Source: a bacterium (GTDB lineage: Bacteria; Patescibacteriota; Gracilibacteria; JAHISY01). Taken from it: a DNA stretch of 64,000 nucleotides. A model generated the notes under the pieces. That model had not been told where the DNA came from. It made no database searches and was given only the letters and a program-made list of their open reading frames with translations. This document shows, piece by piece, positions 44,695 to 64,000 of the stretch (position 1 is the first letter of the stretch; each line of letters starts with the position of its first letter). The position numbers were made by a program, and so were the translations under genes. Location: positions 1 to 64,000 of the forward strand of contig JAJYAT010000005.1 of assembly GCA_021779375.1 (NCBI GenBank), in the 5' to 3' direction.

Positions 44695-45987
44695 TCACGA
44701 ACTCATTTTCGCGTGACGTGATTTTTTGCGACGCACGAGCAGGACAATCACAGTGACGAGCAAAATCGCAATCACGACTCCCCCGCCGATCAGTCCGAGC
44801 AAAATGAAATCGATTGCGCTTGAGGAAAATTGGACTTCCGCTGTGAGCGGCGTATTGGCAAAGCCGAAATTCGCAGCCAGCTTCGCGGTGTAGTCACCGC
44901 GCGGCACAGTTTTTTCTAACCACGGAATCGTAATCACCGCAGTCGAACCCGGCGCGACGTATTCGACATTGTCCGGAATCTGCGGCGAAGCGACCAACTC
45001 ATCGTAGGCATTGCGGATCTCAATCACGCCTTTTGGTCGTTCGAAAACATTGCCGGAATTGGTCAGCGTGAGGGAAAAGTCAGTCGATTTTTCGAGCTGA
45101 TTGATGACGAAAGAATCAACTGCTAAACCTTCTTTGATCTCGACTTCGGTCGTCTGGGTGATCGTCGGCTGGTCGGCGTAATCCAGCGTGAGCTTCGCGG
45201 TAAATTTACCGGGGCGCAGATTGTGGTTCCATTCGCCCGTGAAAATGCGTTCGTTACCGGGCAAAACATTACCACCACCAAGATTGAGTGGAACTTCATC
45301 TAAGATAACAGTCGCGCCTGAGTCTCTATCGACATAACTCGCAACTCCTGTAAGTACCTTGCCAGCAGCATCGGTGAGCGAAACTGAAGCGCGCGGTTTT
45401 TCGTGGACATTGCCGGCGTTTTGGAAATCGCAGCCAAAAACTAAACCTTTGTCGCTCAGAATTTTGTCGTTTTTGAATGTGAAGCTCGTGACTGTACCTG
45501 CGTGAATTTCCTCACCGCTGACTTTGATCAAGATGAGACTCCGCACAGCTGTTTGGATTTTGATGCCAGTCGCGTTTTCGTCGGCGACCGTCGTGTACAA
45601 AAGCGAAGCGTAGCGACCGCCCGGCTCAGCACCATCTGGCACTGTGACTGTGAAATTCACAATCTTTTCCGAGCGCGGCGCCAGCGTGATGACATTCTTG
45701 TCAAAAGCAATCCAGCTGGAGATATTGCGCGGATCATCCGCTGCGAGATCCTCGACTATCGGATAACCATCTTCGTCATTCTTGGTGTAGACCGTCAGCT
45801 CGGGTTTGACCGTAATCGGGATAGATTCAGGATTGATGACGCGAATCGTCGCCGTCACAGCCGCGCCGGGATCAATGTCGAGCTCAGTGCGCACCGGCTT
45901 CACACCAACCGCGAAAACTGTCGAGACAGTCAATACACAAGCGGCGAAGCTTGAAAGTGTGAGCGAGAAAGTTTTTGTGAGAGACAT
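44695..45987 (-). CDS. Membrane-anchored beta-sandwich protein, DUF916/WxL-interacting-like
   Basis: 430 residues. A signal peptide (MSLTKTFSLTLSSFAACVLT, ending VFA) is followed by a first Ig-like domain (PVRTELDIDPGAAVTATIRV, FTVTVPDGAEPGGRYASLLY) and two more beta domains (VSLTDAAGKVL, then FSLTLTNSGNVFERPKGVIE). Near the C-terminus is one membrane span (LLGLIGGGVVIAILLVTVIV) and a basic tail RRKKSRH. This order, with an extracellular Ig-like front and a C-terminal anchor, resembles DUF916-type proteins that hold WxL-domain partners at Gram-positive cell surfaces. The family link is tentative. Third gene of the surface operon, 49 bp after the preceding one. Confidence 0.7.
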   Translation of the reverse strand: MSLTKTFSLTLSSFAACVLTVSTVFAVGVKPVRTELDIDPGAAVTATIRVINPESIPITVKPELTVYTKNDEDGYPIVEDLAADDPRNISSWIAFDKNVITLAPRSEKIVNFTVTVPDGAEPGGRYASLLYTTVADENATGIKIQTAVRSLILIKVSGEEIHAGTVTSFTFKNDKILSDKGLVFGCDFQNAGNVHEKPRASVSLTDAAGKVLTGVASYVDRDSGATVILDEVPLNLGGGNVLPGNERIFTGEWNHNLRPGKFTAKLTLDYADQPTITQTTEVEIKEGLAVDSFVINQLEKSTDFSLTLTNSGNVFERPKGVIEIRNAYDELVASPQIPDNVEYVAPGSTAVITIPWLEKTVPRGDYTAKLAANFGFANTPLTAEVQFSSSAIDFILLGLIGGGVVIAILLVTVIVLLVRRKKSRHAKMSS

Positions 45988-46036
45988 TTTAGCTTGTTAG
46001 ATTATTGGATTATTGAAACATTTAATCATTGAATTA

Positions 46037-47308
46037 TTAGAATGTTGGGAGCGCAACATAGGTAATCGTCCCCTCATAAGTCCCGGCCGGAATGAGATAG
46101 TCGACATTGAAAGCGTAATAAATCGTGTGTGTTTGTGAATTCGTCGGACCGGCGTAGCCGACGTCATTCGCCGTACCATTGTAAAGCGCGAGATTCGCTG
46201 CCGTGCCAGCAGCGAAGGCCGCCGGCGTACCTTCTGCCTTGAGCTCGGTTTTAGTTTTGGAATTTTCGGTGGAATTGTAAGCGATGTAGCCGAAACGGTT
46301 TTCGGTCGACTTAGCATTGCCACTCGTGATCACAGCAGTATTACCCGCATCAGTCCCATCGAGCTCCGCGAGTGCCGGATTTTCCGCACCAGCGAGCTTC
46401 GCCTGAATTTTGTAGCCCGTATTCGCATTAGTCTTGGCAGTGAGAATGGTCTTTTGCGAATAATCCTCGCCGCTATCAACGGAGGGATCGACATTGAGAT
46501 CGACCGTAGCATCGTCAATCGTGAGCACAAGTGCCTCGGCGACCGTCGCTCGCACGCGAATGGAATTCGCCCAGCCGAGCGCAGCATAACCAGTCTCGAG
46601 CACTTGACCGGCGGAATTTTTGACGGCGATATTAAGAGCGTAATTACCTGGTTGTACTGGCATTTGCAATTTGTGCGCTCCGCCAATGTTGAGCGTGACG
46701 GCTTCATTCGCATCCGCGAAAGCGCTATCGGCTGTAAGCGTGATAGTCTGTGCCGCCGTATCAAAAGTCTCGGTCGCGGACAGCGAACCGGTCGACTCGA
46801 GAGTCGCGGAAACATCACTCGCCGTGAGACTCGCGAAATTAGTGAAATCTTCCGGCACAGAAATCACAATCTGGTCACCGGACTGAATCACATGATCACC
46901 ACTTTCGAAAACGACTTGCACGCTCTGCGCAAGTTTGCGCACAGTCTCACCGGATTGGTGCGCCGCTGCAGTCGTCGCGGTGAAATTGGGTGTCGTCCCG
47001 CGCGTCATCGCCGAAATCGTATTGCCGGAAACAGTCGTGAGTGTGGCGACTTCATTGCCAATCAAAACGAGATCACCGCTCGCGAAACCTGTCCCGCTCG
47101 TGAGTGTCGCAGTCGTCGCGCCAGCGGTGAGATTGTCGGCGAGCGTCGTCGCAACTTCGGACACAATCGTCACGACCGGTTTGCCGGTCGCACCACTGCC
47201 TGTCAATTCGTCAGCAGCGGCGACTGCCGGAGGCAGCGCAGCGCACAGAAGTGCCAGAACACTCATGAGTGCAGTGAATCGCGTACGAAAGTTTATTTTT
47301 TGAGTCAT
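46037..47308 (-). CDS. Secreted protein with a C-terminal domain like that of the giant protein
   Basis: 423 residues. The signal peptide ends at AVAAADEL (about residue 33). A repeat-type unit follows (TLTSGTGFASGDLVLIGNEV, AMTRGTTPN), then a beta domain with EDFTNFASLTASDVSATLES and LNIGGAHKLQMPVQPGNYAL. The last 150 residues start ALVLTIDDATVDLNVDPSVD and end PAGTYEGTITYVALPTF. The giant protein ends with a domain of the same plan (LNLDLDPSVSTGDS ... YSTGAGNYESNLELSGV). A shared attachment role is inferred. It lies 33 bp after the giant gene and 49 bp before the membrane-anchored protein. Confidence 0.7.
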   Translation of the reverse strand: MTQKINFRTRFTALMSVLALLCAALPPAVAAADELTGSGATGKPVVTIVSEVATTLADNLTAGATTATLTSGTGFASGDLVLIGNEVATLTTVSGNTISAMTRGTTPNFTATTAAAHQSGETVRKLAQSVQVVFESGDHVIQSGDQIVISVPEDFTNFASLTASDVSATLESTGSLSATETFDTAAQTITLTADSAFADANEAVTLNIGGAHKLQMPVQPGNYALNIAVKNSAGQVLETGYAALGWANSIRVRATVAEALVLTIDDATVDLNVDPSVDSGEDYSQKTILTAKTNANTGYKIQAKLAGAENPALAELDGTDAGNTAVITSGNAKSTENRFGYIAYNSTENSKTKTELKAEGTPAAFAAGTAANLALYNGTANDVGYAGPTNSQTHTIYYAFNVDYLIPAGTYEGTITYVALPTF

Positions 47309-47341
47309 AAATTTAGATTTTGATTATAATTGGAGAGTGAA

Positions 47342-50300
47342 TTAAAACTCGACCGAAACTCCACTTAGTTCGAGATTACTTTCATAATTACCTGCTCCGG
47401 TTGAATAGTCGACCGCCGAATGGAGATTGAGTGTGAAATTTTGCGTGCCTTGGCAGGCAGTTCCCGCGCAAGTGAAGACTGGCGTCGGAGACACAAGACC
47501 GGTGAAAGCTGTCGTCGTCGCAGTACCGCCAGTCGTACCGGAATTAGCATTGTCCCAACCTAATCCTGTCGTACCATTCCAATTGGCAATCGTATCCGTA
47601 GCAAGTGTCAGCCAGGAATGCGGCGTCGCACCAATCGCGAAGCTCGCGGCATTGGTCGTGACTGCGATAGTCGTCACAGCAGAATCACCCGTGCTGACAG
47701 AAGGATCGAGGTCGAGATTGAGATTCGCCGGAGTAAGCGTGAATTGGAAAACCTCGCGCTCGGTCGCAGTGAAAGTACGATCCGCTACCAGCGTCTCGCA
47801 ACCATCGAAGTCCGCGACGACTGTGTAATCACCCGCGCGGTCACCGAGCGTAAGCGCGACTGAGGCATAACCGTCTGCATCGGTCGTCACAGTTTTGACA
47901 ATCTCAGTCCCGCCGAAAGTCGTGCCAAAGGAAGCATCCGTGAGAACTTGTCCCACCGCCGTCGGACTCTCCGGCACAGAGTAAAGGGTGAATGTCACCT
48001 CTTTCTCACCAGCCCCGGCGAAAACTTCATTCGAAACTGCGCCATTACCGACACGCACTTTTAGCTCAGTCGGCAGAGTCTCGTCGATACCACCGAGCTG
48101 ATTATTACCTTCGACGATGTGCAATGTATTGAGGCTAGCCGAAACAGAAAGATTGAAATCTGCATCGGATGTGTCACTCGCAGTATTGCCGACGAGGTCA
48201 GTCGCTGAGACTCGAATGCGCATTCCAGCATCAGCAAGTGCCGGAGTCGTCCAAGAATATGTGCCATCATTCGCCTCGCCCGTCGCGATCGTCGTCCAGG
48301 TCGCACCGCTGTCAGTCGAGTACGCAAGCGTGATTGGATTCGCTGCGAGACCGGAGCCAGCATCAGTGAAGTCAGTAGAATCCCAAGTAATCGGATAAGT
48401 CGCCGCGCTGCCACCAGTCCAAGCCTCACCGCCATTTGGTGAAGTCAGTGTATTGGTCTGGACAGTCGGCGCTGTCTTGTCATATTTGACTGTGAAGATC
48501 CGCTCGGTACCCCAGACACCCGAGCCGGTCTGCGGGCGGACATGGAGATAAGAGGTGCCCTCGGAGACTGGTATTGTATCGACAAAGTTGTTGGTTGTCG
48601 TTAATCTTCTCTGATACTCTGCTCCAATCTCAGCCGCGGTGAGAGCGCGGTTGAAGATCTTGACTTCGTCGATGGAGCCGGGGAAATAGTAGCCCGTATT
48701 AGTCGCGTCACCCCTGCGACCAATTGAAATATTATCAGCAGTAGTATTAATCGTAACGGCGAAACTACCCGACTTCTTCAACACGCCATTGAGATAATAT
48801 TGCCAACCGGAAACACCATCAAATACGAAATTCATGAGGCTCCACTGACCCGCGACAGGAACTTGGTCACCAGTAATGGTAATGTTATTGGTACTATTTT
48901 TGCCATCTGTGAACAGGTAAGAAGTACCGGAAATAGTTGCTGCGTTGAGAATAAAACTTTGACCCGACGCATCCGAATCATTTAAGGCCATGACTACTCC
49001 CCCGGGATTGGCATTGCTTGGATTGATCCAAGCGGACAAAGTCCGCGCTGACCGACCACTCGGGATTGATGTCACCGAAGCACTCGAAACATAGTCATTC
49101 ACTCCGTCGAAGCTACCAGCACTGCTGATCCTGCCGCTCGTCGTGAAAGTTGCGCCATTGGCAGCCGTTCCAGTATTCGTGCCAGCTGAATCAGTCCAGT
49201 CACCATCCATCTTCCACCAGGAGACGAGACCTGTAGTCGGCAGTGAATTTAGATTATCAAAGGTATTGGTCGAGGTCGTATTCAGGTCGTAGTAGAAAGT
49301 ATCATCACTCGCGGAATTCGGATCGATCCAGCTGAAGGAAGCAGCGTCATCATTACCAGCTGCAGCATAATTAAACCAAGTGCCGGAAGTAAGTGAAGTG
49401 CGATCAGAGCTCGAAGCGCCCGCGTCGAGCGGAGCGATGTCAGGAGTCGCCGAGTCCAGTTTGTAAGCTCCATTCCAAGTCGCGACATTCGCAGCGGTAT
49501 CGGCAGCACAGAGATATAGCGTATGCGTACCATTAGTCGAGAGTGGGATTTGAGTAGCATTCGTGAAAGTCGTACCACCGCTCGAGCAATCTGCCGCGAG
49601 CGTATTGGTATCCCAGACATAGCGCGCCGTCGCGAGACCAGCAGTCGCGTCACTCGCCGATAGCGTGATGGTTTGATTCGTGGTGTACCAAGTCGCACTC
49701 GCCTTGTCTGCTGAGACAGTCGGAGCAGTCTTGTCGTACTTGACCGTGAAGATCCGCTCTGTGCCCCAGACACCCGAGCCGGTCTGCGGGCGGACGTGGA
49801 GGTAAGAGGTGCCTTCGGAGAGAGCGACGGAGTCGAGGTAAGGAGTGGTAACAGAAGCTGAAGCGTATGTGGTGATGGTGAGCGAACCATTGGTGGCAGC
49901 AGCCGCGCCAGCACCCAGTGTTGTCGAGGCTTCTGTGAGAGAGGCGCTGAGATAGCCAGAGCCACCACCACCCGCATCATAATCAACCATATTAACCCCT
50001 CCTCCTCCGCCGCCATAATATCCACCGCCACCGCCACCGCCACCGCCGTAAGTAGAATAAGTACCACCAGTACCGCCCTGTCCGGCAGATCCGGCAGTCA
50101 TACCCGATGCATACGTATTAGCACCAGCAGCGCCACCAGCATTTTGTGTGCCAGCACCACCATGACCTACGCCAGTACCAACTCCGCCAGTAATACCTCC
50201 ACCAGAACCAGCAGCCGCACTTACGCCACCACCACCGCCACCACCCGCCACAAGCAGAACCGTGTTTTGCGCAAAAGATTGAGCTGGAGAAAACCATGTC

Positions 50301-53300
50301 ATCCCGCCTCCTCCCGCACCTAAATTCGCACCGCTACTACCACCATTACCGCCACCGCCATATCCGCCAGTAGTACCGGATCCAGTACGTCCAACAAGAA
50401 TGTAATATGTTGCACCAGGAGTAACAGACAATGTTCCTGTACTTGAACCACCCGCACCACCAGAATAACCATTAGTTCCGCCACCTGCACCTTTCGCAGT
50501 AATCGTGATACTCGTCACACCCGCAGGAACAGTATAGCTCTGGATCGTGCCCGTATATGAGAAATCAGTCGTGCTTGTTACTGGTGCCGAGGACACCAAG
50601 CTATCGCTAGAAGTCGCATTCAGCGCATAGTAGAAAGCATCGTCGCTCGCAGAATTCGGATCCGTCCAGCCGAAGGAAGCTTGGTCGTCACCACCGATGG
50701 CAGCAGCTCCGAACCAGATGTCAGAAGTGAGCGAGACGCGGTCAGATGAGCTCGCACCAGCGTCAACTGCGACGATGTCTGGGACAGCTTCGACTTTGGT
50801 CGTATTCGCACTCGTGTAAGTCGCTTCGTTACCAACTGCATCTTTGACGATGTATTGGAATTGGTAACAATTGCCAGTCGGAGCTGTGACATTGTAAGTC
50901 GTCGCAGCGGCAGTCTCCGTAGCACCAGTATCTAGCCAATCTCCGTAAGTTCCGCAACCCGCCGGACTCAAAGCAGCCGAGCGGTACTCGAGGAGATAGT
51001 CGGAATCAGTCGTAGATAGTCCGCTCAGTGCATCTGTACCACGGCTGACTGTGACCGGAATCGTGGTCGTATTCTGGACACTGTCTGAATGTGCCACCGA
51101 TCCACCTGTCGGAGCAGTCTTGTCATATTTGACTGTGAAGATCCGCTCTGTGCCCCAGGCGCCCGCACCAGTCTTCGGGCGGACGTGGAGGTAGGAGGTG
51201 CCTTCGGAGACTGGTATTGTATCGACAAAGTTGTTGGTTGTCGTTAATCTTCTCTGATACTCTGCTCCAATCTCAGCCGCGGTGAGAGCGCGGTTGAAGA
51301 TCTTGACTTCGTCGATAGAGCCAGTGAAGAAAGAAGTGTTTGTCGAGCTGTATATTCTATTACCAATCCTGGCTGCATTTTGAGAATCTATGTTGCTAAA
51401 TTCATTAGTCGTAGCACTTCCGACTCTGTATGTTATCGGTTGCGAGACCCCATCAACATAAATTGCATTGGCTCCGTCACCAGTCTTAACTACAACATGG
51501 TGCCAATTGTTATCCAAATAATAACTTTCTCCTTTCCTCACAAACATAGCTAGTTTTTCGACATTTGTACGCCACAGTACAAAAGTCAAACTTTCATCTG
51601 TATAACTTGAAGTGCTCGCCCCAACGAGCAATGATACAAAATCGGTGGCTGTACTCGAATTGCTAATTCCATACAAATTACCAACACTGGTTCCTTTGAA
51701 CCAGACACTGATTGTACCTGCATTTAGGCCTTCGAGCGTATTGACACCAGTCAAATTCACATAGTCATCCACTCCATCGAAGCTACCTGCACTCGCAATC
51801 TTGCCACTCGTCGTGAAGGTCGCACCACCAGCGGCGGTGCCAGTATTCGTGCCAGCGGAATCGGTCCAGTCACCGTCCATCTTCCACCAGCTGACGAGAC
51901 CAGTAGTCGGCAGTGAATTTAGATTGTCAAAAGTATTGGTCGAAGTCGTATTTAAGTCGTAATAGAAACTATCGTCGCTGGCGGAATTCGGATCTGCCCA
52001 GCTGAATGAAACAGCGTCATCACTGCCAGCCGCAGCATAATTAAACCATGTATCAGAGGTAAGTGAAGTGCGATCAGAGCTCGAAGCGCCCGCGTCGAGC
52101 GGAGCGATGTCAGGAATTAATTCGAAGTTGGCGGTGACACTCTTGTTGGCAACTACAGTCGTATCAGTGCGCGGATTTTGAGTCGAAGAATCAGACCAAT
52201 TAACGAACTGATAGCCAGCGTTTGGGACAGCAGTGACTGCCGTACCAGACGCACCCTCGGCGACTGTCTGTGGTGAAGTGCCGGTAATGGAACCGCCGGC
52301 TCCGGCAGTATAGGTAAGCGTGTACGTGGGAGGAATATACTCATCCGCACCAATATCCCAAGTTCCAGTTCTAGTGTCCTTGTCTAAATCATCGCTGAAA
52401 GGAAAAACTGTTTCAGTAGACGGGGAAATGCCGGATAAATTGGTGCCATGGTCTTTGGCAACGGCGTCATTGTAGGCGAGATGATAACCATCCGCTATGA
52501 AGGTCACGCCGGAAGTGGCGTTGGTGGTTTGATTGATTGTTCCGCCATTTGATGTTTGAAAATTTGCAAGGGTGTTGCTTTGGGCAATACAATTCTTAGC
52601 ATAAACGGTCGTTGCCGTACCAGAACCCTGATAAGTCGCGACTCCATTTCTGTTGCTGACAGAACTGCAATTATAGAGATATGCAGTTTCATTACCATAG
52701 CCTGTTCCGTACGAGATGACAGAAAATCCACTGCCATCCTGGGTAGAGCTTACCCTTCCTGATGATGTGTTTTTTGCTACACAGTTTATGGCGTATTGAG
52801 TGATAGCGGGAACAAGCAAATTCTGGAACATAAATCCTGTTGCCTGAGCGTCTGTGGCAGACGTTGTGACATCATAAGCAGTGCAGCCAACAAATTTGGT
52901 ATTACTTACGCTAGCAGCCAAAAAACCATAAACATGAACCCCTGCGCCGGTCGATGTGACTTTTGATGCTATATCAAAAATAGCAGAATAATTTTCACCA
53001 ATAGCTAAACCACCAGCCCATGCTGTTGCAGCCACTTTTTCGAATCTCACCCCGCTCGTCGGCGTGCCTCTCTGCCCTGTCGCGGCACGGATGACTCGAT
53101 AAAAACTGCTGCTGGTCGTCGCACCTGCCATTAAAACCGAATCATCATACGGCGCGGCATCGGCGTAGGCAGTCAAGACGAAACCAGTCTTGAGCGCTGT
53201 GCCGGATGGAATAGTCCCAGAGATGTTTGAGACTGTAAGCGAGACGCCTGGTGTCACGCCCGTGATAGTGAGGATTTGTCCGGCGACTGAGACAGTGGAT

Positions 53301-56300
53301 TCATTAAGCACGGCGTTGTCGAAGACTGTCGTATCAGCGATGTAGAGCGTGTTGCCGGAGCTGTCCTGGTCGGTCGTCGTGACAGCGGAGAGATTGACAG
53401 TGGTCAGGTCTTCCCAAGCTGCGAGTGATTGGAATGTCCTACCAGCTGCCAGTGAACCGTAAGTATGGACCGTGTAAGCGAGCGGAAGGCGGCGGGCTGA
53501 GACAGTCGAGCGGAAGACAGCCGAGACTGAAATATCAGCAACCACATTGGCATCTGTCCTCGCAGCCGTCGTGACACCATCCGACCAGCCGACGAAATAG
53601 TAGCCTGTACTCGGGACAGCAGTGACCGCTGTGCCAGATGTTCCCTCAGCGACCGTCTGTGGTGAAGTGCCGGTGATCGAGCCACCTGTCCCGGCAGTAT
53701 AGGTAAGAGTGTGAGAAGATATTTTGGTTACGCTGGCAGAGGTGAAGGTCGCTTCGTTGCCGACGGCATCTTTGACCGTGTAGCTGAATTGGTAGCAGTA
53801 GCCGGTCGGGACGGTGACGTTGTAAGTGGTTGTCGCAGCAGTCTCGGTAGCACCTGTATCTAGCCAATCGCCCGCGAATGCAGCACAAGTACCAGCGGTC
53901 AGGACGGCAGAACGGTATCGGAGAGTGTAGTCGGAATCAGTCGTGCTCAATCCACTGCCCGCATCAGTACCACGGCTAACTGTGACGGCGACCGTGGTCG
54001 AAGCTTGCACACCATTCAGATGCGTGACCGAGCCACCAGCTGGAGCAGTCTTATCGTATTTGACTGTGAAGATCCGCTCTGTGCCCCAGACACCTGAGCC
54101 AGTCTGCGGGCGGACGTGGAGGTAAGAGGTGCCTTCGGAGAGGGAGATATTATCAGCGTAGGCATTTGTCGTCGGAGTACCGCGAGCGTACTCTGCGGCA
54201 ATCTCAGCTGCCGAGAGCGCGCGATTCCAAATTTTAACTTCGTCGATGGAACCGGAGAAGTAGCTTGCAGAAGCTGCGCTCTCTCCTATAAAAATTCTAG
54301 TATAGCTTGGTGCCGTACCAGAGACTGTCCCAACGTATGCTCCATCCACATACAAATAATAATTTGTACTACTTCTGGTAATGACTGCCTGGTGCCACAA
54401 TCCGTCTGCTTTACTGGATGACGTCACGACACTTGTCGTTGGACCTCCACTATTGTCAATCCCCAGCGTCCCTGTTGTCGCAAATAGACATAGTTGTAAA
54501 CCCACACCAGATGCTTGAGCTAAATCAATAATTCTCTGCTGAGAAACTGGATTGCTACTTGACTTAACCCAAGTAGACAAAGTTAAATCACTAGAAAATG
54601 AGGTACTTAAAGCGGTCTTGGCAACATAATCATTCACTCCATCGAAACTACCTGCACTGCTAATCTTGCCGCTCGCGGTGAAGGTCGCACCATTGGCAGC
54701 CGTGCCAGTATTTGTACCTGCGGAATCAGTCCAGTCGCCGTCCATCTTCCACCAACTGACGAGACTAGAGTCTGTATAATCATAATAGAAGCTATCATCG
54801 CTCAGTGAATTCGGATCAGTCCACGCGAAAGAAGCGGCGTCGTCACTGCCAATCGCGGCAGGATTGAACCATTGTCCGGAAGTGAGAGAAGTACGGTCAG
54901 AGCTCGAAGCGCCAGCCGTAACTGCGACAATGTCTGGAGTGGTTTCGACTTTGGTTGTATTGGCAGAAGTGAGGATTGTGGAATTGCCGACGGTGTCTTT
55001 GACCGTATAGCGGAATTGGTAGCATTTACCAGCTGGAGCTGTCACACTGTAGGTCGTCGCCGCAGCAGTCTCAGTAGCACCAGTATCCGTCCAAGCACTG
55101 TAAGCGCCGCAGCCAGCCGGAGTCAGATCCGCTGAGCGGTACTCGAGGAGATAGTCGGAATCAGTCGTAGATAGTCCGCTCAGTGCATCTGTGCCACGGC
55201 TGACTGTGACCGGAATCGTAGTCGAGATTTGGGCACTATCGGAATGTGTGACTGAGCCACCGACTGGACCAGATTTGTCGTATTTGAGCGTGAAAGTGCG
55301 CTCAGTACCCCAGACACCCGCACCAGTCTTCGGGCGGACGTGGAAGTAAGAAGTGCCTTCCGAGAGAGCGACGGAGTCGAGATAAGGAGTAGCCGTCGTC
55401 CCAGCTGATCCGACTGAGTAAAAAGTGGCAGGTGAATTTTGGTTGGCGTATTCGGCAGCGATCTCAGCTGCCGAGAGAGCGCGGCTCCAGACTTTGACTT
55501 CGTCGATGGAGCCATTGAAAGTATAACCAACAGAATCATATCTTCCTATGTACAAATTTCTAGTAGATGATGCTGGAGAACTAAATGATGGCGTACCCAC
55601 AGTCGCGTCTTGTCCATTGATGTACCATTTCGCAACACTTCCTTGCCTAACAAAAATAATATTATTCCATTGGTTGCTTTGAATTGACGCCGTAGAACTA
55701 ATTGTTTGATGCGCACCAGACTGGGAGAATACTATAACAACACTATTCGTACTACTTCCAGCTATTTGAATATAATAACCATCTGTATTGTATGTGCCCC
55801 TGGAGAGAAGAATGTCACCACTCCCAGATCTAGTTGCTTCTGGATTAACCCACATACTTATAACAAAATCTCCATTAACAAAATTAAAATTACTTGACGT
55901 TCCTATGTTTATATAATCATCCGTCCCGTCGAAACTCTGAGCTTCGCCGATTTTTCCGGCAGCTGCTTTCAGCGGATTGCCGGCAGCTGCTTTCGTGCCA
56001 GTATTCGCATTCACTGTCGAATCCGTAGTCGTCGAAGTAGTCGCATCATTCATGTGCTGCACCATCTTGTAATTCGTGTCCCAGACATTATTGCGACCGT
56101 AGGTCGCGGTCACAGCATAGGCGGTAGCAGCGGCATTGCCGTAGTAAATGTAGAAAGTCGTATTAGATGTCGCAGACAGTGAATCCGCTTTGAAATAAAG
56201 CTCACCTGTCTTGGCAGTGGTATTGATCGAGACCAATTCGTAAGGTAATTCCGTACCTGCGGCATTAGTAAGACGAATGTCCGAGCCGTCGGTTTTCACT

Positions 56301-59300
56301 GCTGCGAAGAAGTCGGTACCAAGATCGGCGAGATTAACATAGACTGGGAAATTCGTAATTGTCGAGCTAATTTTGGTGCGATCGATCGTGATGGATTTGC
56401 GAGCCGACCAAGCGGAGAATGAGCCGAAGCCAGCGGAATCTGCCGCAGTCGAATTCAGCGCGTAGTAGAAAGTATCGTCACTCGTGGAATTCGGATCGGT
56501 CCAGCCGAAAGAAGCATCATCGTCACCGCCAATCGCAGCGGGATTGAACCAGGTTCCAGAAGTCAGTGAAGTGCGGTCAGAGCTCGAAGCACCAGCCGTG
56601 ACTGCGACGATATCCGAAGCTAATTCGAAATTAGCAGTGACAGAGACATTGGCTAAAACATTTGTATCTGTACGCGGATTCACGAGAACTCCATCAGACC
56701 ATCTGCTGAAACCATAGCCAGCATCCGGCACGGCGGTGACAGTAGTCCCGCTCACTCCGGAGAGTACCGTCTGTGAAGTCGTCCCTGTCAGCGAGCCATG
56801 GCTGCCCGCAGCGTAACTTAGACTGTAACTGTCCAATTCGAAATTAGCGACATAGGAAGCATTACTCGTCACATTCGAATCAGTCCTCACCGCAGTCAGG
56901 ACTCCATCGCTCCAAGATGTGAAATGAAAATGCGCATTTGGCACAGCCGTCACGGCAGTGGCATTGCCACCACTCGTCAGGGTTTGAGTGTTTTTGCCGG
57001 AGATAGTTCCATTGGCTCTGGCTGAGTAATTGAGAGTCACGGCATTGGCGGTGTATTCATCCGCGCCGATATCCCAATCATTGTCCCAGCCATACCGAGA
57101 CTCGCCATCGATGTCTTCGCCAAATTTGAAGGCTGAGTCCGTCGATAAATCTGTGCCGTTGTTTTTGGCGACTGTGTCAGTAGGATCGAGATGATAGCCG
57201 TCCGCTGCGAAAACTACGCCCGTGGTGGCATTGGTGGTTTGCTCAATCACCCCACCATAAATACCATAAAATGTAGAGCCATTCGATTGAGATATGCAGT
57301 TTTTAGTCACCATCACCGGATTGCTGACATTTTGTCCGGCACTGAAAAATCCCGCCTTGCTGCAACCTACAGCCGTACAATTGTAGAAATAATTAACATT
57401 GTTCCCAGCTGTATCCTTGAAAACATTAAATCCGCCGTAATCATGCACTGGCGAGTCGATATTGTAAGCTAGGCAGTTAATAAATTTTGCATAGTAGCTA
57501 ATCGGACCGGCGGTAAACCCTGAGCTTGAATCTGTCGCTCCCGAAAAATCATAAGCTGTACAACCACTAAATATGTTGTAGCTGCCGCTATTGTAAAAAC
57601 CATAGATGTAAGCGTTAGCGTAAGAAACACTAACTGCGACACCGTAAACCGAAGAATAATTCTCGTTAATATAAATGCCGGTAGGACTTAGCGTCTCGGC
57701 AAATCTCACGCCGCTCGTCGGCGTGCCGCGTTGTCCACTCGCCGCGCGCAGAACTCGATAGTAATTGCTGTCCGTCGTCGCGCCAGTGAAATTTATGATG
57801 TCGTTGTACGGCGCAGCATCAGCGTAGGCAGTCAAAACGAAACCGGTCTTGAGAGCTGTACCGGATGGGATAGTCCCGGAGATGTTTGAGACTGTGAGCG
57901 AGACTCCCGGTGTCACACCAGTGATAGTGAGGATTTGTCCGGCGACCGAGACTGTAGATTCATTGAGAACACAGGTATTGAAGACTGTCGTGTCGGCGAC
58001 GTAGAGAATGTTGCCTGAGCTATCTTGATCAGTCGTCGTGACAGCGGAGAGATTAATATCTGTCATATCTTCCCAAGCTGCGAGCGATTGGAAAGTCCGA
58101 CCCGCTGCCAGTGAACCGTAAGTATGGACTGTGTAAGCGAGCGGGAGACGGCGGGATGAAGCAATCGGAGCGAAGCTGGCAGTAACGGAGATATTTCCCA
58201 ATACGGTCGTGTCAGTTCTAGGATTCTGAGTCGAGCCATCCGACCAGCCAGCGAAATAATAACCAGCACTCGGCACTGCCGTGACCGCCGTGCCAGAAGC
58301 ACCTTCATTGACTGTCTGACTGAGAGTACCGGTGATAGTGCCATTAGCGCCAGCAGTATAATTCACATCATATGAAACATTACTGTAATAAGCGACTCGC
58401 AAAATTGGCGGCGTCGTCCCCTCGCGACTGTGATAAGTATCAGTCGCAACCGCCTTACCATCATTAGCATAATTCATAATCAATGTCGTCCCATTGTTGA
58501 CATAGGTCGGTGTGAAAGCGACACCATTATCGAGATAGACTGAATAGTAAGTGTTCCTATCCGTGTAGTCTTTCACCAGCCCATCCGTGCTACTACCCAG
58601 GACATTCCAAGTCTCTGTCGTACCAGCACCGGAAGTGATTGTAGAAAGAACGCTACCATAGCTGCCACCCGTGAAAACACTGACTGCGCTAGCCTCATTC
58701 CAGGTTTGATTGATAAATCTTCGGGCATTTATCGCAGTAGCCATATTCGCCGCATGAGTAAGCGTGAGATTGGCACTGATTATTCTTTTGTCCGCCGGGA
58801 TGCCAGAAATGTCGAACTTGAGATAAGCGCGACCTGTACTATTATTGGTCGCACAAGTACTCTCCGAACACAGACTCACATCCGGAGCTTGGACGACATT
58901 GAAGTCCGGATCGAGCACGAGGGGGAAAGCCCCATCGTCACTTGCCATCCAACCATAGTCGAGTGTGATTTCGAGGTAATAATTACCTTGCTCGTTCTTG
59001 AGCTCACTGCCAACCTGATAAGTTCTCTGAACTTGATCATAGATGAAAGGCTGAGAGGTAGAAAAAATATTCTGACCGTCTTGCTTGAAGAAAATTTGAT
59101 CATTGTGCATTTCAGGAGTGACACCCTCCGGCACGCTGATTTTCGTCCGTAGAATAACTTTGCCCTTGAAGTGGTCCGGCTCGCTGACTTCTTTGAGCAC
59201 GTCGAGATTATTGAAGAACAATTCTTCTTTGACACCATTTTTCGTCGAGTGGTATTTCAGATCGACACCCGGGAAGATATTTCTGAACTTGGTTGATTTG

Positions 59301-62300
59301 TACGAATGCATGATATCTCCTGCCTGCGCATTGGCGAGGACGATAGTTCGATTGGGGTCTTGGTAAGCGATATTTTCCAAAGAGAAGCTAAATTCCTTAC
59401 CATCTTTGACATACTTGATGATGTTTTTATTTTCCACGTCCGAGCCGACGAAAATATCATAAGGCTTGATTTGATACTGTTTGCCAGCTTTCGCTTTGTC
59501 CTGAGCAATCGTCTCCGGCTGACCTAGATAATCATCGACCTTCTCCCACTCACCATCGATCTGGATATTTTCCGGAGCAGCATAAATCAAAGCCTCTTTC
59601 GTCCCATCTCCATTGTCATAGATATCGGTATTCGCCGTCCGTTTGATAAGCTTGCGCGTTTCCTTGTCTGCCCTCGGAGGATTATTCTTCGCGGCTTCTT
59701 CCGCCGCATTTTTGGCTTCTTTGATTTTTACAGCATCATTATCGTAGGCATAGTCTGCTTCCGTCCAAGTTCGACTGAGAATAGCGTCCCGGTCAAATTC
59801 CAAAACGGTCTCAGATACGCGTTTGGCTTTCAGGACGTCCAACATGAAGCCTTCCATCCAAACGCCTCTTTGGATATTTACTTCTACCTTATCAAGATCG
59901 CGATCACGAGCTAATTCAAAAAGGACAGTCGTAATCTTTACCATTATCTCCGACCAAAGCTTTTCGGAAATATCGACATTGAGGAAAGTAAATTGACCAA
60001 TCGCCTTGCCTTGATAAGCCAAACCCATGGTCACAGCCACCATTTTTCCGTCCAGATCCAGCACGCGGATGTAGATATTTTCCGTGCCATATTTATCGAC
60101 GAAAGCTTGGTAGCCTTTGAGGATTTCCCAATTGCTTGTTTTGTGTGGTAAATCACACCAAACACCTTTTTTTAAGCCTTTGTTATAAAGCTCGACCACC
60201 GCCGGTAAATCACTGACTTTCGCCTCGCGGATCTTGATACGCTTCAGGTCATCGCGCGTGATATTAGCCAGTCCTTCTGTAGCCGAAGTGTCTTTGAAAT
60301 TAGCCAAAATATAATTGGCATCAGCGTCTATGTTGATTTGATCGATGGCAGGACCTTCCGTCGGCACCGCGTCGTAAGCTTCGGTCGGCGGAGTGAAATC
60401 CTTAGTCCAGCGCGCGATGCCTTTCGAGATGCGCAGCTCGTCGAGATAGCCGTTGAAGAAATAGTTATTCTCTTCGCCACCGATCGTGAGCGCGACTTTG
60501 TCGTTGTAGATCGAAATGTCGGACTGCGTCGAACCACTCGCGCTGCCATTGATATAAAACTCGAAGTCCGCGCCATTGCGCACCAGCGCAAAATGACTCC
60601 ACTCGTTAATTGGTAAGACGTCAGTGCTAGTGAAATTAATCGCCCAAGCTGCGGAATTGTCATCATCAGCGATAAATTGCAGTTTGTTTTCAGCAGTGAC
60701 GATCAGACTGAAGCCATTGAAACCATCGACTGTCCGATGCGCGATGATGGAAGCACCTTGCGTCGCCGCCGAGAGATTGATCCAGCCGTCGATGGTGAAA
60801 TTAGCGTCGCCGAAATCCCAATCAGTGGAGTCAGCTAGCGCAAGCGAATCGCCCGCGCCATCGAAGCGCAAGGAAGTTGCGCCGAATTTTTTAGCAGCAG
60901 TCGTGTAATGTGTGTCACCGTTCACGGTAATCGTGTGCGCTGAGAGAGAAGCATCTGCGAAAATCGTCGAGCCGTCCGCCGCACCAGACTGGATGAGTAA
61001 TTTTGTGTAGGAGTCATTCCCGCCGGGCGTTTTTTCCAGATCAATCGGATTGTCTGGAATCGTCTCAGGATTCAGATCGGCGAGCGGATTGGCGTAAGCA
61101 ATCGTGCTGCTCGCACTCGGGGCGAATAAAGGCGTATGTCCATTCGCCAGGAAAGCCGAAATCCAAGTCCGCGCGCTGGCAGTAGAATTTTTGCCAGCCG
61201 CGATATTCGCGACAATGCGCAAAGTGTGGAGCGCATCGGTCAAGCCTGTCGCCAGCGATTTAATCTTGTCGGTCTCCGTAGTTTTGCTCGCATCGACGAG
61301 CAGGCTTTTTTCGGTGCGTGTGCCTTCGTCCAGGACGAACTGCGTGACACCACCGTTGTCGAGTGCTTGGTCAAGCACAGCGGAAATTTCCGTGCCGCGC
61401 AGTTTCGCGAACGCCGTCTGTCCGACAAGCGCAGTGCTTCGGTCAGAATCCGTACCGATTTTCGCCCAACCTGTCGCTACGTCATTCGCCTCGTCGAGGA
61501 AGAAAATCGAACTTTCCGAATCACTGGAATCACGCTCGACTGCATCACCTGCGAAATTGTATTTCACGAAAAGGTCTGAATTCTTAGCGGGAGCTTGCGC
61601 GAGTGTCACTGCTCCGGCGATTTCGACAATCGTCTGATCACCGAAGTCGCCCGCAACCGTGCCGTCAATACCGCGTTTCAAATTCGAGAAAGTCCCGCCG
61701 GAATATTCTCCGAAATAAACTTTCTCGCGCTTGAATTGCGCGGACGGATTGCCGAGCCAGAGAAATCCACTGCTCGGGATTTGGTCGGCTGCAGAAATCG
61801 AATCAACTCTGAATGAAGTGGCAGCGGCAGAAATTCCCTCAGGCGAATCAATCCGGGCGAATGAACCGGCTTGCGCCGATGTGACCGCGACAGCGACTCC
61901 ATCGACGTAAGCCTCGACGGAATTCGCGAGCGGATAACTTTCGTAAATCTGGAAAATGAAATCAGCGGCTGACTCTGCCCACTCCGCACCTTTGATTTCA
62001 GCCGTCCCATCAGCGAAGCTTGGCGCGCTCGCATCCGCAGCCCACACAATATAATTCGAGGCGGAAGATTTGAAAGTGCCTTCCAAGACCAAGTGATAAG
62101 CCGTGCCAGCCGTGAGACTGGGCGGCGTCGCGAAATTGAAATTCACCCACTCGTAATCACGAGTGGAAAGCGCATCAACTGCGAAGCTCACCGCAGTACC
62201 ATTCGCGACAGTCGTGCCACTCGGCAAACCGTCCGCGTCAGTCTGAATCGAGAGCGCGATGTTGCCCGTCGGCGTACCAACTTTTTTGAGCCACAGACCG

Positions 62301-64000
62301 ACTGACGGGATCGCACCGTCCGCAGCGAGTCGGAATTCCTGTGCGAGCGCAGCATTGGCATTCGTGCCAAAATCTGTGTCCCGATTCGTCGGCGCGTAAT
62401 TTTTCGCCGGCAAAACTTTGGACTTGAGTGCTCCCCGCTCGAGCGGGAAGGTCGTCTTCGCACCATCGGTGAAATTGATATTTGTATCTGTGTCAATCTT
62501 CGTGCCTAAAATTTGCTCTGTTTTCGTAGCGCGCGAATTCGCAGCCAGCCAAACTTGCGAGTCCGGCGTCGCAAATGAGCCGAGCGCTGCTCCACCATCG
62601 GTGAACGCATCCGCGTAAATCGCGAAGTCAAAAATCGAGCCAGTGAAAGCGGCAGTCGCATCCGGCGTCGCATCATTACCCAAAATAATTTGGGAATGCT
62701 GGCTCGGCGTGAAGTTTTGCGCAATTTTTTCCGCAATCTTTTGACCGTTCAGATAGAGGCTCAGACCAAAAGTCGTCGCAGTCGGCTGCCACCAGCGTGC
62801 GAGGATGTGATTCGCCGCAGTAGCGGAATAATTCTCCGCGAAATCCGAATCCGTAATCGAGATTGCCGCACTCGCATTTTTGAATTCGAAAGTGAGCGCA
62901 CTGGCAGAATCCATGTAAATTCGCGCGCCATTATTACCAGAGTCATCACGCGTATCGACGAAATGGTCACTGTCCATCAGCGCGCCCGTCGCCCAGAATT
63001 CGAGCGTACCTGTATTTTGAACTTCAGAAATATTGCCCTTGTCCGGGAAGGTCAGACCATGCGGGAATTGAACGAAATCAGGTGAAATCACATCATCGAT
63101 GATGCGGGAATTCATTGTGAGCGCATTGCTCGGAATTGAACTCGTCGAATTCGTCTCGATAAATTGCGGAACGATGAGCGCGGCGGTCGCGCTGAGATTT
63201 TTGAGACCGGAATTTTCGATTCTGACCGTGTGCTCTTTCGCCACCAAATTCGTCGCGACGAGGAAGCGTTGATCACGCGCAGCACTCGCCGCAAAAGTAT
63301 CGACCTCAGTCGTGATCTCACTCGGCGTGCCGCCGTCAATCGTGATTTGCGTGATGCCGCGATTTGGTCCTATATCGAGTCCGGCGATGATTTCCGTCGC
63401 GACTGAAGTCTTGGCAATCGGTGAATTATCAGCTGACGTGTAAATCGCCGCAACCTCAGCCGCAGTGAGCGGTCGCGCGAAGAGTGCCAGTTCGTCAATT
63501 TTTCCGTCGAAGAAAGTCGTTTTTTTACCTATTTTCAAATCACTCGCAGTGAATGATGTCGCTGTCGTCACCACGATGTGGTGCCAAGCATTTCTGGAAA
63601 TTTCCGTACCCTCGGTGCCATCGACGAAGATTGTCGGCGAGTCAAAACCCGTCGCAATCAACTGGCGACTCACGATGGAAAGCGCGTGCGTCCCGCCATC
63701 GAAGTCGATGATGTCGCGCGAAACATTGTCGGCGAAAATCCAAAAACTCACCGCGTTCACCGGCTGTGAAATCGCGCCGATATTGAGATAGTCATCGCTG
63801 CCGTCGAAGATCGCTGCCTTGGCGAAATGGCCATCGATGAATGTCGTACCACCGTTCGCAGCCGCATCGGACGCAGCGAAAGATGAGTCTGTGAAATCAC
63901 CGTCCATTTTCCAGAAGCCTGCGAGATCTTGTGAATTCACGATGCCGCTCAGTTGACCGAGCGGATCACCGTTGAATTCTAAGTCTGTGACAGAGCCAAC
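47342..64000 (-). CDS. Giant modular surface protein, at least 5,552 residues, 5' end beyond right edge
   Basis: The frame is open to the edge (20 more codons beyond the GTG at 63940), so the true N-terminus is missing. Modules in protein order, by window position: LamG 1 (64000-63430), LamG 2 (63070-62540), an anchor-type beta domain (62350-61900), LamG 3 (61030-60420), a GNAT-like domain (60250-59770), a pre-DNRLRE region and DNRLRE domain (59560-58390), InlB B-like repeats (five: near 58370, 57040, 56820, 53700, 52300), two near-identical beta-helix-like blocks (58150-57050 and 53500-52320), DUF2341 (56420-56090), four more LamG domains (near 56080, 54770, 51930, 49230), five AGASSSDR units, five YDK-P Ig-like units, a Gly-rich block (50560-49860), and a C-terminal domain shared with the next gene. 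Probably a surface adhesin or carbohydrate-binding fibre. No protease or transmembrane anchor is visible in this part. Confidence 0.9.
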   Translation of the reverse strand, partial: VGSVTDLEFNGDPLGQLSGIVNSQDLAGFWKMDGDFTDSSFAASDAAANGGTTFIDGHFAKAAIFDGSDDYLNIGAISQPVNAVSFWIFADNVSRDIIDFDGGTHALSIVSRQLIATGFDSPTIFVDGTEGTEISRNAWHHIVVTTATSFTASDLKIGKKTTFFDGKIDELALFARPLTAAEVAAIYTSADNSPIAKTSVATEIIAGLDIGPNRGITQITIDGGTPSEITTEVDTFAASAARDQRFLVATNLVAKEHTVRIENSGLKNLSATAALIVPQFIETNSTSSIPSNALTMNSRIIDDVISPDFVQFPHGLTFPDKGNISEVQNTGTLEFWATGALMDSDHFVDTRDDSGNNGARIYMDSASALTFEFKNASAAISITDSDFAENYSATAANHILARWWQPTATTFGLSLYLNGQKIAEKIAQNFTPSQHSQIILGNDATPDATAAFTGSIFDFAIYADAFTDGGAALGSFATPDSQVWLAANSRATKTEQILGTKIDTDTNINFTDGAKTTFPLERGALKSKVLPAKNYAPTNRDTDFGTNANAALAQEFRLAADGAIPSVGLWLKKVGTPTGNIALSIQTDADGLPSGTTVANGTAVSFAVDALSTRDYEWVNFNFATPPSLTAGTAYHLVLEGTFKSSASNYIVWAADASAPSFADGTAEIKGAEWAESAADFIFQIYESYPLANSVEAYVDGVAVAVTSAQAGSFARIDSPEGISAAATSFRVDSISAADQIPSSGFLWLGNPSAQFKREKVYFGEYSGGTFSNLKRGIDGTVAGDFGDQTIVEIAGAVTLAQAPAKNSDLFVKYNFAGDAVERDSSDSESSIFFLDEANDVATGWAKIGTDSDRSTALVGQTAFAKLRGTEISAVLDQALDNGGVTQFVLDEGTRTEKSLLVDASKTTETDKIKSLATGLTDALHTLRIVANIAAGKNSTASARTWISAFLANGHTPLFAPSASSTIAYANPLADLNPETIPDNPIDLEKTPGGNDSYTKLLIQSGAADGSTIFADASLSAHTITVNGDTHYTTAAKKFGATSLRFDGAGDSLALADSTDWDFGDANFTIDGWINLSAATQGASIIAHRTVDGFNGFSLIVTAENKLQFIADDDNSAAWAINFTSTDVLPINEWSHFALVRNGADFEFYINGSASGSTQSDISIYNDKVALTIGGEENNYFFNGYLDELRISKGIARWTKDFTPPTEAYDAVPTEGPAIDQINIDADANYILANFKDTSATEGLANITRDDLKRIKIREAKVSDLPAVVELYNKGLKKGVWCDLPHKTSNWEILKGYQAFVDKYGTENIYIRVLDLDGKMVAVTMGLAYQGKAIGQFTFLNVDISEKLWSEIMVKITTVLFELARDRDLDKVEVNIQRGVWMEGFMLDVLKAKRVSETVLEFDRDAILSRTWTEADYAYDNDAVKIKEAKNAAEEAAKNNPPRADKETRKLIKRTANTDIYDNGDGTKEALIYAAPENIQIDGEWEKVDDYLGQPETIAQDKAKAGKQYQIKPYDIFVGSDVENKNIIKYVKDGKEFSFSLENIAYQDPNRTIVLANAQAGDIMHSYKSTKFRNIFPGVDLKYHSTKNGVKEELFFNNLDVLKEVSEPDHFKGKVILRTKISVPEGVTPEMHNDQIFFKQDGQNIFSTSQPFIYDQVQRTYQVGSELKNEQGNYYLEITLDYGWMASDDGAFPLVLDPDFNVVQAPDVSLCSESTCATNNSTGRAYLKFDISGIPADKRIISANLTLTHAANMATAINARRFINQTWNEASAVSVFTGGSYGSVLSTITSGAGTTETWNVLGSSTDGLVKDYTDRNTYYSVYLDNGVAFTPTYVNNGTTLIMNYANDGKAVATDTYHSREGTTPPILRVAYYSNVSYDVNYTAGANGTITGTLSQTVNEGASGTAVTAVPSAGYYFAGWSDGSTQNPRTDTTVLGNISVTASFAPIASSRRLPLAYTVHTYGSLAAGRTFQSLAAWEDMTDINLSAVTTTDQDSSGNILYVADTTVFNTCVLNESTVSVAGQILTITGVTPGVSLTVSNISGTIPSGTALKTGFVLTAYADAAPYNDIINFTGATTDSNYYRVLRAASGQRGTPTSGVRFAETLSPTGIYINENYSSVYGVAVSVSYANAYIYGFYNSGSYNIFSGCTAYDFSGATDSSSGFTAGPISYYAKFINCLAYNIDSPVHDYGGFNVFKDTAGNNVNYFYNCTAVGCSKAGFFSAGQNVSNPVMVTKNCISQSNGSTFYGIYGGVIEQTTNATTGVVFAADGYHLDPTDTVAKNNGTDLSTDSAFKFGEDIDGESRYGWDNDWDIGADEYTANAVTLNYSARANGTISGKNTQTLTSGGNATAVTAVPNAHFHFTSWSDGVLTAVRTDSNVTSNASYVANFELDSYSLSYAAGSHGSLTGTTSQTVLSGVSGTTVTAVPDAGYGFSRWSDGVLVNPRTDTNVLANVSVTANFELASDIVAVTAGASSSDRTSLTSGTWFNPAAIGGDDDASFGWTDPNSTSDDTFYYALNSTAADSAGFGSFSAWSARKSITIDRTKISSTITNFPVYVNLADLGTDFFAAVKTDGSDIRLTNAAGTELPYELVSINTTAKTGELYFKADSLSATSNTTFYIYYGNAAATAYAVTATYGRNNVWDTNYKMVQHMNDATTSTTTDSTVNANTGTKAAAGNPLKAAAGKIGEAQSFDGTDDYINIGTSSNFNFVNGDFVISMWVNPEATRSGSGDILLSRGTYNTDGYYIQIAGSSTNSVVIVFSQSGAHQTISSTASIQSNQWNNIIFVRQGSVAKWYINGQDATVGTPSFSSPASSTRNLYIGRYDSVGYTFNGSIDEVKVWSRALSAAEIAAEYANQNSPATFYSVGSAGTTATPYLDSVALSEGTSYFHVRPKTGAGVWGTERTFTLKYDKSGPVGGSVTHSDSAQISTTIPVTVSRGTDALSGLSTTDSDYLLEYRSADLTPAGCGAYSAWTDTGATETAAATTYSVTAPAGKCYQFRYTVKDTVGNSTILTSANTTKVETTPDIVAVTAGASSSDRTSLTSGQWFNPAAIGSDDAASFAWTDPNSLSDDSFYYDYTDSSLVSWWKMDGDWTDSAGTNTGTAANGATFTASGKISSAGSFDGVNDYVAKTALSTSFSSDLTLSTWVKSSSNPVSQQRIIDLAQASGVGLQLCLFATTGTLGIDNSGGPTTSVVTSSSKADGLWHQAVITRSSTNYYLYVDGAYVGTVSGTAPSYTRIFIGESAASASYFSGSIDEVKIWNRALSAAEIAAEYARGTPTTNAYADNISLSEGTSYLHVRPQTGSGVWGTERIFTVKYDKTAPAGGSVTHLNGVQASTTVAVTVSRGTDAGSGLSTTDSDYTLRYRSAVLTAGTCAAFAGDWLDTGATETAATTTYNVTVPTGYCYQFSYTVKDAVGNEATFTSASVTKISSHTLTYTAGTGGSITGTSPQTVAEGTSGTAVTAVPSTGYYFVGWSDGVTTAARTDANVVADISVSAVFRSTVSARRLPLAYTVHTYGSLAAGRTFQSLAAWEDLTTVNLSAVTTTDQDSSGNTLYIADTTVFDNAVLNESTVSVAGQILTITGVTPGVSLTVSNISGTIPSGTALKTGFVLTAYADAAPYDDSVLMAGATTSSSFYRVIRAATGQRGTPTSGVRFEKVAATAWAGGLAIGENYSAIFDIASKVTSTGAGVHVYGFLAASVSNTKFVGCTAYDVTTSATDAQATGFMFQNLLVPAITQYAINCVAKNTSSGRVSSTQDGSGFSVISYGTGYGNETAYLYNCSSVSNRNGVATYQGSGTATTVYAKNCIAQSNTLANFQTSNGGTINQTTNATSGVTFIADGYHLAYNDAVAKDHGTNLSGISPSTETVFPFSDDLDKDTRTGTWDIGADEYIPPTYTLTYTAGAGGSITGTSPQTVAEGASGTAVTAVPNAGYQFVNWSDSSTQNPRTDTTVVANKSVTANFELIPDIAPLDAGASSSDRTSLTSDTWFNYAAAGSDDAVSFSWADPNSASDDSFYYDLNTTSTNTFDNLNSLPTTGLVSWWKMDGDWTDSAGTNTGTAAGGATFTTSGKIASAGSFDGVDDYVNLTGVNTLEGLNAGTISVWFKGTSVGNLYGISNSSTATDFVSLLVGASTSSYTDESLTFVLWRTNVEKLAMFVRKGESYYLDNNWHHVVVKTGDGANAIYVDGVSQPITYRVGSATTNEFSNIDSQNAARIGNRIYSSTNTSFFTGSIDEVKIFNRALTAAEIGAEYQRRLTTTNNFVDTIPVSEGTSYLHVRPKTGAGAWGTERIFTVKYDKTAPTGGSVAHSDSVQNTTTIPVTVSRGTDALSGLSTTDSDYLLEYRSAALSPAGCGTYGDWLDTGATETAAATTYNVTAPTGNCYQFQYIVKDAVGNEATYTSANTTKVEAVPDIVAVDAGASSSDRVSLTSDIWFGAAAIGGDDQASFGWTDPNSASDDAFYYALNATSSDSLVSSAPVTSTTDFSYTGTIQSYTVPAGVTSITITAKGAGGGTNGYSGGAGGSSTGTLSVTPGATYYILVGRTGSGTTGGYGGGGNGGSSGANLGAGGGGMTWFSPAQSFAQNTVLLVAGGGGGGGVSAAAGSGGGITGGVGTGVGHGGAGTQNAGGAAGANTYASGMTAGSAGQGGTGGTYSTYGGGGGGGGGYYGGGGGGVNMVDYDAGGGGSGYLSASLTEASTTLGAGAAAATNGSLTITTYASASVTTPYLDSVALSEGTSYLHVRPQTGSGVWGTERIFTVKYDKTAPTVSADKASATWYTTNQTITLSASDATAGLATARYVWDTNTLAADCSSGGTTFTNATQIPLSTNGTHTLYLCAADTAANVATWNGAYKLDSATPDIAPLDAGASSSDRTSLTSGTWFNYAAAGNDDAASFSWIDPNSASDDTFYYDLNTTSTNTFDNLNSLPTTGLVSWWKMDGDWTDSAGTNTGTAANGATFTTSGRISSAGSFDGVNDYVSSASVTSIPSGRSARTLSAWINPSNANPGGVVMALNDSDASGQSFILNAATISGTSYLFTDGKNSTNNITITGDQVPVAGQWSLMNFVFDGVSGWQYYLNGVLKKSGSFAVTINTTADNISIGRRGDATNTGYYFPGSIDEVKIFNRALTAAEIGAEYQRRLTTTNNFVDTIPVSEGTSYLHVRPQTGSGVWGTERIFTVKYDKTAPTVQTNTLTSPNGGEAWTGGSAATYPITWDSTDFTDAGSGLAANPITLAYSTDSGATWTTIATGEANDGTYSWTTPALADAGMRIRVSATDLVGNTASDTSDADFNLSVSASLNTLHIVEGNNQLGGIDETLPTELKVRVGNGAVSNEVFAGAGEKEVTFTLYSVPESPTAVGQVLTDASFGTTFGGTEIVKTVTTDADGYASVALTLGDRAGDYTVVADFDGCETLVADRTFTATEREVFQFTLTPANLNLDLDPSVSTGDSAVTTIAVTTNAASFAIGATPHSWLTLATDTIANWNGTTGLGWDNANSGTTGGTATTTAFTGLVSPTPVFTCAGTACQGTQNFTLNLHSAVDYSTGAGNYESNLELSGVSVEF

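Follow-up and report, generated by a model that had tools for sequence, protein, structure and literature searches.

The DNA analysed here (the window) is a stretch of 64,000 nucleotides, bases 1–64000 of contig 5 in a Gracilibacteria genome (1.07 Mb, 98% complete) from the candidate phyla radiation (CPR). Its end carries an array of three minus-strand genes encoding, in order, a giant secreted protein, a small secreted protein and a membrane-anchored protein (Table 1). The intergenic gaps are 33 and 49 bp, and the array is operon-like. The three genes lie where an earlier sequence-only reading of the window had put them, and the giant gene does not end at position 64,000; it extends to contig position 68518, begins with a TTG start codon and a signal-peptide-like start, and encodes 7,058 amino acids (aa) in total. 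The two secreted proteins end in a shared domain. Genome-wide, one gene related to the WxL-interacting proteins (WxLIPs) and two shared domains are found, and all three are these neighbours. The closest named relative is a Candidatus Gracilibacteria metagenome-assembled genome (MAG), with 60% identity in the third protein; the WxLIP-like gene of several genomes placed in the same class contains in-frame TGA codons.

Table 1. Features of the three-gene array, with window positions
Feature	Position	Strand	Description and basis
First gene, giant secreted protein	47342..64000, cut by window edge	-	LamG/ConA-like lectin domains, InlB-type B-repeats, DUF2341; Pfam
Conserved final 420 residues of giant protein	47345..48601	-	60% and 51% identity in two relatives
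Shared C-terminal domain of giant protein	47345..47791 (about residues 6910-7058)	-	hhalign against 107 small proteins, E 2.1e-6; hit of profile A5 (includes it)
Second gene, small secreted protein (423 aa)	46037..47308	-	Signal peptide, N-terminal beta-sandwich (127-246), C-terminal shared domain
Shared C-terminal domain of small protein	46040..46540 (about residues 257-423)	-	Residues 267-423 match NCBIfam NF058581 (E 6e-6), under its cut-off
Third gene, WxLIP-like membrane-anchored protein P0001 (430 aa)	44695..45987	-	Signal peptide, three beta-sandwich domains, C-terminal transmembrane helix (about 391-418), basic tail
First domain of third protein, DUF916/WxLIP_PGBD counterpart	45510..45918 (about residues 24-160)	-	Pfam WxLIP_PGBD 36-123; hhalign with enterococcal WxLIP; invariant columns

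The third protein, which the sequence-only reading had likened to DUF916-type proteins, is a genuine WxLIP (DUF916/DUF3324) homologue. Taken by itself, P0001 matches the Pfam models WxLIP_PGBD (DUF916; E 7e-4) and WxLIP_HBD (DUF3324; E 3e-3), in the expected order but with neither score reaching its cut-off. PF06030 is the commonest Pfam match among its relatives, found in 15 of the 17 from the same class (best 6e-12) and in 33 of 40 CPR-wide members. When a profile of these 40 members is compared by hhalign with seven WxLIPs of Enterococcus and Vagococcus from annotated WxL clusters, the match reaches a probability of 98.9% (E 1.5e-17) over 229 columns spanning both domains, and against one single WxLIP it is still 95%. 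The family profile also matches the solved EfmWxLIP1 (9i1y, 9i25) in a sequence search of the PDB (E 4e-4); PDB sequence searches with two window proteins taken singly gave nothing useful. The AlphaFold model of the third protein (pLDDT 89) has three beta-sandwiches and a C-terminal helix, and Foldseek retrieves the WxLIP chain 9i25_C (E 3.4e-10, target TM-score 0.49) as well as the fimbrial chaperone CfaA (target TM-score 0.54–0.58), among many other Ig arrays. The complete WxLIP arrangement of DUF916, DUF3324 and C-terminal transmembrane helix is thus found by family-level profiles and fold. The first domain contains a conserved W92 and the motif DGAEPGGRY (118–126), and the second and third domains are alike, the family profile matching the gene twice. 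No NCBIfam model covers this WxLIP-like partner.

The C-terminal domains of the giant and small proteins had been described as built on the same plan, and this likeness proves to be real homology. Both carry the quoted motifs, LDPSV (residue 6937) and GNYESNLEL in the giant protein, VDPSV (273) and GTYEGTITY (409) in the small one, the latter with a proximal TNANTGYKIQA (293) and a distal AGTYEGTITYVALPTF (408–423). A profile built only from the 107 small proteins aligns with that of three large proteins of the window family over 133 columns (hhalign 89%), and its score of 40.8 compares with at most 16.5 among 30 column-shuffled decoys. The small protein is predicted by AlphaFold to form two beta-sandwiches, and the top PDB fold matches include the chaperone-usher tip adhesins PapG, CfaE and CsuE and the pilin CfaB; the whole-chain TM-scores are low, and staphylococcal adhesins are among the matches too.

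The giant protein is probably a sugar-binding surface protein, with two matches to Laminin_G_3 (5e-66 and 2e-82) and two to Flg_new_2 (1e-32 and 1e-23) in Pfam. Outside its last 420 residues it is repetitive and variable. By eye, a GNAT acetyltransferase-like stretch, KIREAKVSDLPAVVELYNKGLKKG, can be seen at about residues 2757–2918 (window 59767–60250), which is odd in a secreted lectin-rich protein; Pfam has no such match there. A strongly glycine-rich segment, GGGGGGGYYGGGGGG, lies between repeat units at about residues 6000–6200 (window about 49900–50500).

The three genes are conserved together. In two relatives a large, a small and a WxLIP-like gene adjoin, so that the triad is kept in close relatives, and the large proteins there are very different, one having 2,048 aa and the other, cut by the end of its contig, upwards of 3,610 aa. 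Beyond them, the pairing of the domain with a WxLIP-like gene recurs across the CPR. A contig profile scan with the WxLIP-like family, for which a narrower alignment was used because the 17-sequence WxLIP alignment was too divergent for scanning, gave 160 relatives. Of these, the top 80 loci come almost entirely from the CPR (Gracilibacteria, Saccharibacteria, Microgenomates, CPR2, WWE3 and Parcubacteria). Around them lie 101 shared-domain proteins, every one with the domain at its extreme C-terminus and 44 directly upstream of the WxLIP-like gene. When 97 genomes are drawn evenly from the phylum, the WxLIP-like gene is present in 49, the domain in 39 and both in 38 (Fisher p 9e-16); 76 of the 94 domain hits have a WxLIP-like gene no more than 5 kb away, where about 2% would be expected, and 45 are directly upstream of it on the same strand. 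The domain occurs with no WxLIP-like hit in a single genome (G083, 87% complete), where it ends a 5,552-aa open frame, another giant (contig 38, 18096–18614). In many loci (L079, L084, L092, L096 and others), two or three WxLIP-like genes flank one domain protein (W-C-W order), which raises the possibility that the WxLIP-like copies have separate jobs. The pair is also seen in two records labelled as other than CPR, L140 (Bacterium BMS3Abin01) and L127 (a MAG labelled Methylomirabilis), which may reflect transfer, wider distribution or mis-binning.

The relation of the shared domain to the WxL domain itself is more distant. Compared directly, the two give no significant hhalign match (0.9%, with E 0.06 in local mode and nothing in global mode), and the local score lies above all 40 shuffles. 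Without constraint, both WxL tryptophans fall on Tyr/Phe of the CPR domain, and a Y/F-x-aliphatic pattern occupies both W-x-L positions in most relatives. This alignment was not taken as proof of kinship; hence, intermediates within the CPR were sought. The Pfam WxL model (PF13731) matches none of 47 relatives and nothing in the window's genome; among the 97 CPR genomes it has matches in eight (three over cut-off), six of which are without the window-type domain. The domain is held to be mainly Firmicute in WxL reviews (PMC9772566), and a literature search found no paper on WxL in the CPR. In hhalign comparison, the CPR WxL-type proteins reach 97.7% (E 1.4e-12) with Firmicute WxL and 81% (E 1.3e-5, 138 columns) with the window-type domain, the latter with a score of 41.9 against a shuffle maximum of 11.0; since hhalign E-values for single pairs lack calibration against a database, the shuffles count for most here. 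Certain single CPR sequences match both domain models weakly. Through these intermediates the shared domain connects to the WxL domains, to which it appears remotely related. Three supported groups emerge when the WxLIP-like proteins are placed in a tree: those that accompany the window-type domain (98/96), those that accompany CPR WxL-type domains (95/91) and those of Firmicutes (100/100). This split by partner type is drawn from rows that were taken from different searches and are not a neutral sample. The CPR WxL-type domains are mostly near a WxLIP-like gene (L153–L163; genomes G100, G117, G133, G138, G146 and G158).

In Firmicutes, the WxL (Csc) clusters encode a small WxL protein, a large WxL protein and a WxLIP of DUF916, DUF3324 and a transmembrane helix. 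The window repeats this arrangement: next to its one WxLIP homologue, which bears a C-terminal transmembrane helix, stand a small and a large secreted protein with a C-terminal domain in common, and the large one has ConA-like lectin domains, as do some CscC proteins (PMC1534035). There are differences, however: the window proteins have neither a W-x-L motif nor a Pfam WxL match, an additional Ig-like domain is present in the third protein, the locus has no LPXTG protein encoded beside it, and the large protein has 7,058 aa where 500–900 are typical. The locus is therefore not a WxL cluster in the strict sense, but it shares its WxLIP with the WxL clusters by descent and most likely works like one. 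The earlier proposal of a CPR counterpart of the WxL system is supported, since neither of the two checks that could have overturned it, on homology and on conservation in relatives, did so. The WxLIP homology and the conserved pairing stand, whereas the likeness of the C-terminal domains to WxL holds through the CPR intermediates and not in direct comparison.

The reading we favour, at a probability of roughly 0.68, is a divergent surface display operon of the WxL/WxLIP type, in which a membrane-anchored WxLIP captures its cargo by strand complementation. Both the lectin-rich giant and the two-domain small protein would be secreted, each ending in an Ig-like beta-sandwich related to the WxL and Pam pilin domains, and the third protein would be held in the cytoplasmic membrane by its C-terminal helix. 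Its Ig-like array, with a fold resembling that of pilus chaperones, would donate a strand to complete the incomplete sandwich of the shared domain, thereby capturing and stabilising the giant adhesin and the small subunit and presenting them at the cell surface. From there, the LamG domains would bind host or partner-cell glycans. Docking of the shared domain on the third protein is argued by analogy with enterococci, in which WxLIP is predicted to supply a disordered strand that closes a gap in the WxL sandwich (PMC10599100) and a WxLIP–WxL complex has been solved (PDB 9i25). The predicted chaperone-like and pilin-like folds fit this strand-filling logic, and capture by a membrane-anchored, chaperone-like holder is favoured on that ground.

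Several points weigh against this display model. As the sequence-only reading had noted, the strict W-x-L motif is missing; neither the small protein nor the giant's last 250 residues contain it, and the direct profile match to WxL is not significant. The small protein has an N-terminal domain beyond the shared one, whereas small WxL proteins have none. The TM-score of the third protein to WxLIP (0.49 at most) is low, and Ig-like folds are common. In addition, the enterococcal WxL study argues that the transmembrane helix inserts in a host membrane (PMC10599100).

A possible but distinctly less probable arrangement is a true polymeric pilus, in which the shared domain would let subunits polymerize by strand exchange, with the WxLIP-like protein as chaperone or base and the giant as terminal adhesin. 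Part of the shared-domain family is in fact named in NCBIfam as 'Pam pilus system pilin subunit' (NF058581, CPR_Pam_pilin_C; also NF058579, CPR_pilus_PamT), and the window's domain belongs to the same extended family: CPR_Pam_pilin_C matches 31 of 47 small relatives (best 8e-51) and CPR_pilus_PamT 16, relatives in other CPR lineages pass the NF058581 cut-off, many of them by far, beside the same WxLIP-like gene family, and some CPR loci have three tandem subunits. The fold matches point the same way, as the small protein is predicted to take a two-domain form, adhesin plus pilin, like that seen in chaperone-usher pili (CFA/I, Pap, Csu and type 1), and the third protein the tandem Ig fold of their chaperones, notably CfaA. 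This likeness is of fold only, at 10–16% identity, and the partner in the window is membrane-anchored, unlike the soluble periplasmic chaperones. Moreover, the window has a single small gene, whose product (P0002) scores 26.4 bits with NF058581 against a cut-off of 55 and has no PamT match, while the giant matches neither Pam model; by score, the locus falls outside the Pam pilin family. A literature search found no paper describing the Pam pilus. A sortase-dependent pilus is rejected because the giant and the small protein lack sorting signals (an LPXTG-type motif plus hydrophobic tail), ending in ...SGVSVEF and ...YVALPTF; the sole sortase of the genome sits on a different contig from the locus.

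Attachment to peptidoglycan, with the shared domain itself binding the cell wall and the third protein merely assisting, is unlikely. WxL domains are held to bind peptidoglycan and the shared domain is their putative remote relative, but the two tryptophans that are reported to form a buried hydrophobic surface in WxL (PMC9772566) are replaced in it, and just one of the 97 genomes has it without a WxLIP-like gene, which suggests that the domain depends on the WxLIP-like protein. That common Ig-like secreted proteins have become neighbours by chance, with no mechanism in common, is the least credible account and is already contradicted: Ig-like folds are indeed widespread, and the third-protein model also matches unrelated Ig arrays (ciliary and integrin chains), but co-occurrence and adjacency lie far above chance and the tree groups by partner type.

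Cultivated CPR bacteria, to our knowledge, all live attached to other microbes, and we know of little on how they display adhesins beyond type IV pili. The analysis connects the WxL clusters, the Pam family and the giant adhesins of the CPR, and this connection is new, although part of it may already have been published. The odds are about even that the WxL clusters of Firmicutes, the Pam pilus of the CPR and the window's locus are branches of one ancient display machine, present in about half of CPR genomes, in which a membrane-anchored, chaperone-like WxLIP captures secreted adhesins through an incomplete C-terminal Ig domain, and whose lineage-specific WxL-type or Pam-type domains have co-diversified with their WxLIP. 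If the favoured reading of the locus is right, about half of the sampled CPR genomes would hold a WxLIP-based display system, the NCBI-named 'pilus' and the WxL system of enterococci and lactobacilli would become one testable mechanism, and CPR proteins ending in the shared domain could be predicted to be surface cargo.

One cultured saccharibacterium has a dockerin protein among its essential proteins (PMC10633639). In four Parcubacteria/CPR2 loci (L096, L106, L082 and L076), genes downstream of the WxLIP-like gene end, by eye, in dockerin-like repeats, DINFDGIVNIVDFSIMMYWW, followed in L096 and L106 by cohesin-like proteins; such neighbours suggest a scaffold coupled to the display system.
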